NCBI RefSeq assembly: GCF_001885215.1
Contig: NZ_CP018091.1
Span: 1,674,001 to 1,738,000, forward strand
DNA length: 64,000 nt
Reading direction: 5' to 3'
Source: Synechococcus sp. SynAce01
Lineage (GTDB): Bacteria; Cyanobacteriota; Cyanobacteriia; PCC-6307; Cyanobiaceae
Shown here in pieces: positions 40,228 through 41,719 of this stretch; positions within the stretch are counted from its first letter, which is position 1; each line of letters begins with the position of its first letter. Below the pieces are notes generated by a model, which made no database searches, was not told the origin of the DNA, and saw only the letters and a list, made by a program, of their open reading frames with translations. A program made the position numbers and the translations under genes.

Positions 40228-40689
40228 ATGCCCCTCTTGCTGACTGGCCGCCGCTTCCGTGACGACCTTGAGCAAGCAGGAGCGTTGGCCCTTTATGCCC
40301 CGCTCGAAGGCGGAGCCGAAACTCGCCTGATGCGCCGCCTGCGCGCTGCCGGCTACCGGGCCCAGATGACCTCGGCGCGAGGGTTGGGTGACCCCGAGGC
40401 CTTTCTATTTGAGCTTCATGGGGTTCGTCCACCCCACCTCGGCCACCACAGTGTTGGCCGTGATGCGGCGGTAGGAACCGTTCAGCGGGTCATGCCGCAG
40501 TTGGGTTCCCTCTTGGTCGGTAGCCAACCGATGTTGTTGTGGTTGCTTGAGGCCCAGGTGTTGTCCTCGGCGGAGAGGACATCCCTCTGCAACCTGACCC
40601 GCAGGGAACCACGATTGAAGATCGTGGCGGAGATGGGCGGCTCGCGCAGTTTGCGCTGGGAGCCTTTGGAGCAGTGTGTCGACGCCTGA
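40228..40689 (+). CDS. ndhN: NAD(P)H-quinone oxidoreductase (NDH-1) subunit N
   Basis: Peripheral subunit of the cyanobacterial and chloroplast NDH-1 complex, used in cyclic electron flow and respiration; 153 residues. It starts [20 protein letters not shown] with a GGAG site upstream, and has [20 protein letters not shown] and [20 protein letters not shown], which are typical NdhN. The last 14 bases overlap ldpA, an arrangement seen in other cyanobacteria. Confidence 0.92.
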
Positions 40690-41719
40690 GCAGGCCCTTG
40701 CCGCTGGTCGCTGGGTCAAGTTGATCTGCGGGGCCAGCAATCAGGACCTTGCCGGGATCGAGGATCTCTGCGGGATCTACACCCTGGCTGGGGTTCATTG
40801 TATTGATGTGGCCGCAGACCCCGCTGTTGCCGCAGCCGCTCGTCGGGGCATGGCCTGGGCGCTTGATCAGGCCATGCCCCGACGAGCGGCTGCGGCTCCG
40901 CCCTGGTTGATGGTCAGCCTCAGCGATGGGGACGATCCCCACTTCCGCAAGGCCTGGTTCGATCCGCTGTGCTGCCCAGCTGATTGCCCCCGTCCCTGCC
41001 AGCAGGTCTGCCCTGCCCTGGCGATTGCAGCGACCGGTGCTGTTCAGTCCGATCGCTGTTATGGCTGCGGCCGCTGTCTGCCGGTCTGCCCCCATGGGCT
41101 GATTGAGGAGCAGGGGCAGATCCTCTCGGCCTCGATGGTGGCGCCGCTGCTGGCCCGCCTCCGGCCCGAGGCGGTGGAGATTCACACCCGCGTTGGTCGT
41201 GGCGAGGCCTTCGCCAAGCGCCTGCTGCAGGTGGAGGCTTCCGGGCTGAGCCTGCGGCGGCTGGCTGTGAGCTGTGGCCTGGAGGGCCCTGCCGGCGTCC
41301 GCCCGCTCCAGCTGGCCGAGGAGCTCTGGGGGCGGTTTGCCCGGCTGCGCGCCGGTGGCCTCCGCCCGCTCTGGCAGCTCGATGGGCGGGCCATGAGCGG
41401 GGATATCGGCCAGGGCACGGCCCACGCGGCTCTGCGCCTGCTCGCGGCGGTGCGACCGATCGCTCCTCCAGGCCCCCTCCAGCTGGCCGGCGGAACCAAT
41501 GCCTCCACCCTGCCGTTGTTCCGCCGCCAGGCCGGTTCCGCCCTGGCGGCCAGGAGCCAGGCCGCTGGCGTGGCCTTCGGCGGTGTGGCTAGGGCGTTGC
41601 TGCAGCCTTTGATCCTCCAGGCCGAACAAAGAGGGCACCGTCTGCTTGATGACCGGCTGCTCTGGCCCCGGGCCCTTGAGCTGGCACGGGGGCTGGTGGC
41701 TCCCTGGCTGGCCTGCTGA
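40676..41719 (+). CDS. ldpA: Light-dependent period protein LdpA (iron-sulfur protein)
   Basis: In Synechococcus elongatus LdpA is an Fe-S protein that feeds redox and light information into the circadian clock; 347 residues here from GTG. Cys-rich motifs are [15 protein letters not shown] (about residues 100-115) and [14 protein letters not shown] (about 128-141), enough for 4Fe-4S clusters. Residues 52-74 are encoded by a perfect 29-bp inverted repeat and read as a near-palindromic Ala/Arg peptide ([13 protein letters not shown], then [10 protein letters not shown]) just before the conserved [20 protein letters not shown] suspect part of this is an insertion. Overlaps ndhN by 14 bases. Confidence 0.9.
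40829..40896. repeat. Perfect 29-bp inverted repeat inside ldpA
   Basis: The left arm 40829-40857 is exactly complementary to the right arm 40868-40896, with a 10-base loop 40858-40867. Every one of the 29 positions matches. The repeat is in frame and encodes residues 52-74 of LdpA. It is GC-rich, so the mRNA could form a very stable hairpin early in the coding region. Confidence 0.97.

Follow-up and report, generated by a model that had tools for sequence, protein, structure and literature searches.

The window, by which we mean the whole 64-kb stretch of Synechococcus sp. SynAce01 DNA that was analysed, carries the genes ndhN and ldpA in the same orientation, and a long inverted repeat lies inside ldpA (Table 1). 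The ldpA product matches two Pfam families above their cut-offs, LdpA_C (148.9 against 22.2 bits) and LdpA_Fe-S-bd (77 against 27.6 bits), and its best NCBIfam match is NF045992 (LdpA), with 322.7 bits under a cut-off of 450. As described in passages of PMC5520375, LdpA is a redox-sensing clock input, and S. elongatus mutants are altered in period length only. The structure model of LdpA, obtained with 46 aligned sequences (mean pLDDT 92.7), contains a helix at residues 49–66, a loop at residues 67–76 and a strand at residues 77–83, and the right arm of the repeat (residues 65–74) falls mainly in this predicted loop between the helix and the strand. A fold search with the same model gave weak barrel-type matches only, with a lowest Foldseek E of 2.4e-5 and a TM of about 0.4 when scaled by query length, the weak likeness being to barrel enzymes such as homologues of thiamin phosphate synthase and of the tryptophan synthase alpha chain. 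Two family members give only distant LdpA matches over roughly the first half of the protein, at 30% identity (G009:C17:13693-14238) and 33% identity (G029:C5:38540-39037), and to judge from their sequences these are perhaps diverged or different proteins.

Table 1 Features of the ndhN–ldpA locus and of the inverted repeat in ldpA (positions in the window)
Feature	Position	Strand	Remarks
ndhN	40228..40689	+	Pfam NdhN, 204.5 bits; 3' end overlaps the ldpA start by 14 bases
ldpA CDS, 347 aa, GTG start	40676..41719	+	Open reading frame; Pfam domain matches
Left arm, source copy	40829..40857	+	Encodes a conserved helix stretch, residues 52-61
Inverted-repeat loop, 10 bases	40858..40867	+	
CAG, possible priming microhomology	40868..40870	+	Reverse complement of CTG 40855-40857; putative role
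Right arm, new copy	40871..40896	+	Reverse complement of 40829-40854 at 26/26 positions
Predicted ldpA mRNA hairpin, ~30 pairs	40829..40896	+	-72.9 kcal/mol as RNA, -46.7 as DNA

The two arms of the repeat (40829-40857 and 40868-40896) are reverse-complementary at 29 of 29 positions with 10 nucleotides between them and, reading from the GTG at 40676, span codons 52–74 of ldpA in frame. The coordinates and codons given for this perfect repeat by the original prediction were thereby reproduced, and its judgement that a chance origin is improbable is borne out by the base composition of the window, from which 1.6e-10 perfect repeats with arms of at least 29 bases and a loop of at most 60 bases are expected in 64 kb and 6.9e-9 genome-wide. 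In a scan of 464 kb, made up of the window and 20 stretches of 20 kb and covering about 17% of the 2.75-Mb genome, the ldpA 29-mer is the sole perfect inverted repeat with arms of at least 16 bases (loop at most 60). The runners-up are three repeats with 15-base arms, and the 464 kb give no sign of long palindromes being spread over the genome. Open stop-to-stop frames of 295–519 codons in the same 464 kb hold three 15-bp repeats and one 14-bp repeat; coding DNA of SynAce01 may therefore contain shorter inverted repeats, with the proviso that long open frames are frequent by chance at such a GC content. In long stop-to-stop frames of SynAce01, 15-bp perfect repeats with loops of 0–3 bases are found at L129 13489-13521 and at L130 3596-3625 and 5008-5039.

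The near mirror symmetry of the encoded peptide arises because of the codon register of the DNA repeat. As the sequence shows directly, each left-arm codon has its first base opposite the second base of a right-arm codon, and the third bases face each other. In this register, GCN (Ala) turns into GCN, CGN (Arg) into CGN and ATG into ATG, while GGN turns into CCN (Pro) and TGG into CAG (Gln), and the right arm (40871..40896) codes for AMPRRAAA plus two bases of the following Ala codon. The palindromic peptide follows formally from the DNA repeat, given Ala/Arg-rich codons, and is not a separate feature. The same register has to be considered when asking whether point mutations could have converged by chance on the repeat in an Ala/Arg-rich, GC-rich linker, the codons of which are self-complementary. 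GCN and CGN do complement each other here, and matches of 4–8 bases between the helix and the linker are usual in relatives (144/150 rows). However, the 29/29 match includes third positions as well as ATG, GGC and TGG codons, its expected number is the 1.6e-10 given above, and permuted helix–linker pairings reached at most 11 bases in 40 rounds over 150 sequences. We therefore consider chance convergence scarcely credible.

Comparison with relatives allows the two arms to be told apart. The ldpA search matched 274 of 300 genomes, and the loci read were 30, one of them from SynAce01, together with 80 chosen among the matches listed. One set of 108 rows comprises another 110 loci and the window minus L027, in which the motif was not found, L022 and L025; two of its rows are SynAce01 (the window and L001), and some genomes occur twice, from two collections. 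A second set, of 150 distinct sequences, derives from the window and the 210 of 218 relatives' loci that fitted the pattern; one of the 150 is the window, and the other loci of its own genome were excluded. The median identity of the left arm to the same place in the other 149 distinct sequences is 72% at the nucleotide level and 70% at the amino acid level. For the right arm, placed at its best offset in the linkers of the relatives, the median nucleotide identity is 50%, which equals that of shuffled letters (0.50 versus 0.50). With conservation on the left and no more than shuffled-letter identity on the right, this sequence comparison identifies the left arm as the ancestral source and the right arm as the derived newcomer. 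Both conserved flanks of the right arm are intact, and the reading frame is kept.

The segment from a conserved D to PWLM has 36 residues in SynAce01 and 30 residues in 85 of the 108 rows, with a range of 29–41, and the nearest relative, represented by L002 and L031, which are identical there, has 34 residues. To judge from these alignments, the net lengthening is 6 residues relative to most rows but only 2 relative to the nearest relative, and the linker appears to have been replaced as well as extended. The original prediction that a template switch copied the left arm backwards and thereby lengthened LdpA, with an insertion to be sought by alignment around residues 63–74, is thus upheld only in part. 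The backward copy of the left arm and the greater length than in most rows agree with it, whereas linker sequence was also replaced and most of the extra length is already present in the nearest relative. Only two same-genus relatives have an LdpA match, with protein identities of 76% and 71%, and a third one, with an 80% complete genome, gave no LdpA match. Global alignment of the linkers gives scores of -4.5 to L002 and -0.5 to L003, both from same-genus relatives, and 55% and 48% of the fourfold sites of ldpA differ from L002 and L003, respectively. SynAce01 and L002 have GATCAG before the linker in common, and the rest of the nearest relatives' linkers is too diverged to show switch points.

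The sequence pattern is best explained by a single short-range template switch of the quasipalindrome type, recent in the lineage, which very probably made the ldpA palindrome. A nascent strand ending in GATCAG would fold back while ldpA is being copied, so that its 3' CAG pairs with a CTG lying 10 bases upstream in that strand. From this primer the polymerase would read 26 bases of the nascent strand backwards, namely codons of the conserved helix, and resume on the true template ahead of CCCTGG. The outcome would be a variable linker that has been rewritten by a reverse-complement copy, in frame and longer, in a loop that tolerates changes in length. We infer in this scheme the priming bases, the same-strand route, the single event, its recency, its near-neutrality, the point of return and how many bases were replaced. 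A primer of 3 bases is short and common, and switching on the same strand and switching to the other strand both fit the sequence. GC skew over 20 sampled stretches is weak and dnaA was found near the contig start; neither places the leading or the lagging strand. Because the arms have no mismatch while 48–55% of fourfold sites differ from L003 and L002, the event would be young, provided that no homogenisation of the arms has followed it. The perfect arms thus suggest a young copy, and later homogenisation could also have kept them perfect.

A fold-back chimera, that is, an artefact of sequencing or assembly, could give a similar pattern. The evidence consists of assembled sequence, and a hairpin of such GC content is hard to sequence. 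However, the genome is one contig of 2.75 Mb, and the right arm lies exactly in the variable linker with its frame kept and the conserved flanks intact. Fold-back artefacts are usually long-armed and arise regardless of frame. An artefact is accordingly judged to be highly improbable.

In-frame palindromic DNA in protein genes is also known from the Rickettsia palindromic elements, which form a multi-copy mobile family, and the insertion of such an element, or of a REP- or MITE-like one, would likewise place a palindrome in frame in a protein-coding gene such as ldpA. The ldpA repeat resembles the Rickettsia elements in being an in-frame palindrome but differs from them in being single-copy and built from the gene itself. 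In the complete genome of SynAce01, the best other match has 21 bases (E 0.009), and the longer matches of 35 and 44 bases are only 83% and 78% identical (E 0.06 and 0.2), none of them being a convincing second copy. The 39 related genomes searched yield no more than two matches, of 19 and 21 bases (E 0.003 and 0.008). Furthermore, the left arm belongs to the usual ldpA sequence and is present in relatives. Because no convincing further copy was found in its own genome or in the 39 relatives, a mobile element was rejected, and we assign it next to no probability.

The template switch would leave a stem in the ldpA mRNA, and this stem could itself be the object of selection. According to this alternative, the hairpin holds up ribosomes or is a site of RNase III cleavage, and LdpA levels fall compared with NdhN; co-transcription of ndhN and ldpA is assumed here from their 14-base overlap. 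The predicted stem is very stable (Table 1) and makes the segment the most stable per base among the 150 distinct sequences, and folding of the 275-nt context gives a z-score of -6.43. A perfect duplex of such length would be a plausible RNase III substrate, whereas translating ribosomes would open a stem within the coding region. Against selection on the hairpin, the next longest helix-to-linker match among the 150 distinct sequences is 15 bases in one lineage and at most 10 in the others, no comparable stem is present at this place in the other 149, and a single genome cannot show conservation or covariation. Nor does any Rfam family match at the gathering score in 40500-41200. The bases after the stem, TCCGCCCTGG, have no T run as an intrinsic terminator would, and the one terminator-like site in 40600-41100 lies elsewhere, at 40781-40794, in a scan that takes loops of 3–8 bases only. 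The scans for a terminator and for a known RNA family were thus negative in these ranges. A functional mRNA hairpin under selection is very improbable. On the simplest view of the sequence, the stem is a tolerated by-product of the template switch, and, as modelled, it could slow ribosomes or be an RNase III substrate. An effect of the hairpin on LdpA translation, as had been suggested when the repeat was first noticed, or on ldpA expression is hypothetical and not needed by the template-switch explanation, and a link between the repeat and the clock is hypothetical.

Shorter repeats occur in ldpA of other lineages. The longest helix-to-linker match among the 150 distinct sequences is 29 bases in SynAce01, followed by 15 bases in Synechococcus sp. 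CS-1329 (L033 and L144, the same sequence); matches of 10 bases are found in L150/L032 and L151, from the genus of L144, and in L012, from another genus, and L153 has 9. In L033, the 15-bp perfect repeat (1661-1705, loop 15) lies at the same LdpA linker where L150/L032 and L151 have 10 bp. Between L144 and L151, 3 of 4 adjacent right-arm bases and 2 left-arm bases differ, and without both groups of differences the 15-bp match would not exist; as far as these sequences go, either arm of the L144 repeat could be the copy. In L095, a metagenome-assembled cyanobacterium, a 20-bp perfect repeat with a 10-base loop (2135-2184) lies in a second ldpA loop that varies in length; this loop is longer in L095 than in the 15 sequences compared, and its repeat could have come from a further template switch or from the assembly. 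The background scan of relatives covered loci L002-L110 only. In these 425 kb, the perfect repeats with arms of at least 15 bases and loops of at most 60 are those of L033 and L095 and one 16-bp repeat, found in L003 and L049 (apparently one genome represented twice) close to the ldpA match but not within it.

A general excess of helix–linker complementarity among the relatives is weak at best, with a mean of 6.03 observed against 5.55 permuted. Matches of at least 9 bases number 6 of 150 against 2.65 expected, and are those of SynAce01, of L012 and of four related sequences from a single genus (L144, L150, L151 and L153); in the wider segment of the 108 rows, L039 has an 11-base match. The three ldpA cases suggest recurrence and fall short of proving a hotspot, the loops surveyed being those of ldpA alone, L095 being a metagenome assembly and the excess across relatives being slight. 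It is a tentative idea, which we hold to be rather less than probable, that template switches repeatedly hit the length-variable loops of LdpA, that bacterial proteins grow and rewrite loops via adjacent backward copies, and that LdpA records several such events. If it is true that the other ldpA repeats arose likewise, template switching would provide a one-step route to new loop sequence and length, and a cluster of altered residues in a loop of this kind would not have to signal selection.

A literature search, mainly of non-subscription sources, found neither the ldpA event nor a like cyanobacterial case in the titles and abstract starts of the matches listed. Inverted repeats of bacterial genomes have been surveyed in PMC10434271, the passages of which contain nothing on the ldpA case. 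The template-switch studies compared so far, each through a part of its text, concern reporters, yeast substitution clusters and RNA genes, whereas in ldpA the old and new arms are separable by comparison and the product is situated in a protein loop whose length varies. In coding genes of S. cerevisiae, template switching makes perfect inverted repeats and alters neighbouring residues (PMC8604942), and the ldpA case resembles these in the reverse-complement copying between nearby stretches of a protein-coding gene. However, the passages of that work deal with substitutions only, indels being uncounted, in at most 5 residues and with a longest arm of 16 bp, whereas ldpA has 29-bp arms and a loop length that differs from those of relatives. 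In RNA genes, a single template switch yields a perfect hairpin stem by reverse-complement copying (PMC8794818, in part); the stem is the product there, whereas in ldpA it lies in a protein gene, probably as a mere by-product. Nematomorph mitochondria have coding palindromes, for which template switching is offered as a possible mechanism in the passages of PMC6649704; like the ldpA repeat, these are perfect, lie in protein genes and have both arms translated, but they reach 284 bp and their two arms encode conserved residues, whereas in ldpA only one arm does so and the other falls in a variable loop. For bacteria, intramolecular template switching within a coding gene is described, in the part of PMC7202029 consulted, for quasipalindrome reporters in E. 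coli lacZ, which were engineered so that an imperfect repeat becomes perfect; the ldpA repeat, in contrast, is natural, and the nearest relatives have little symmetry at its place. The kind of mutation is thus already known, and ldpA is a clean new natural example of it in a bacterial protein gene.
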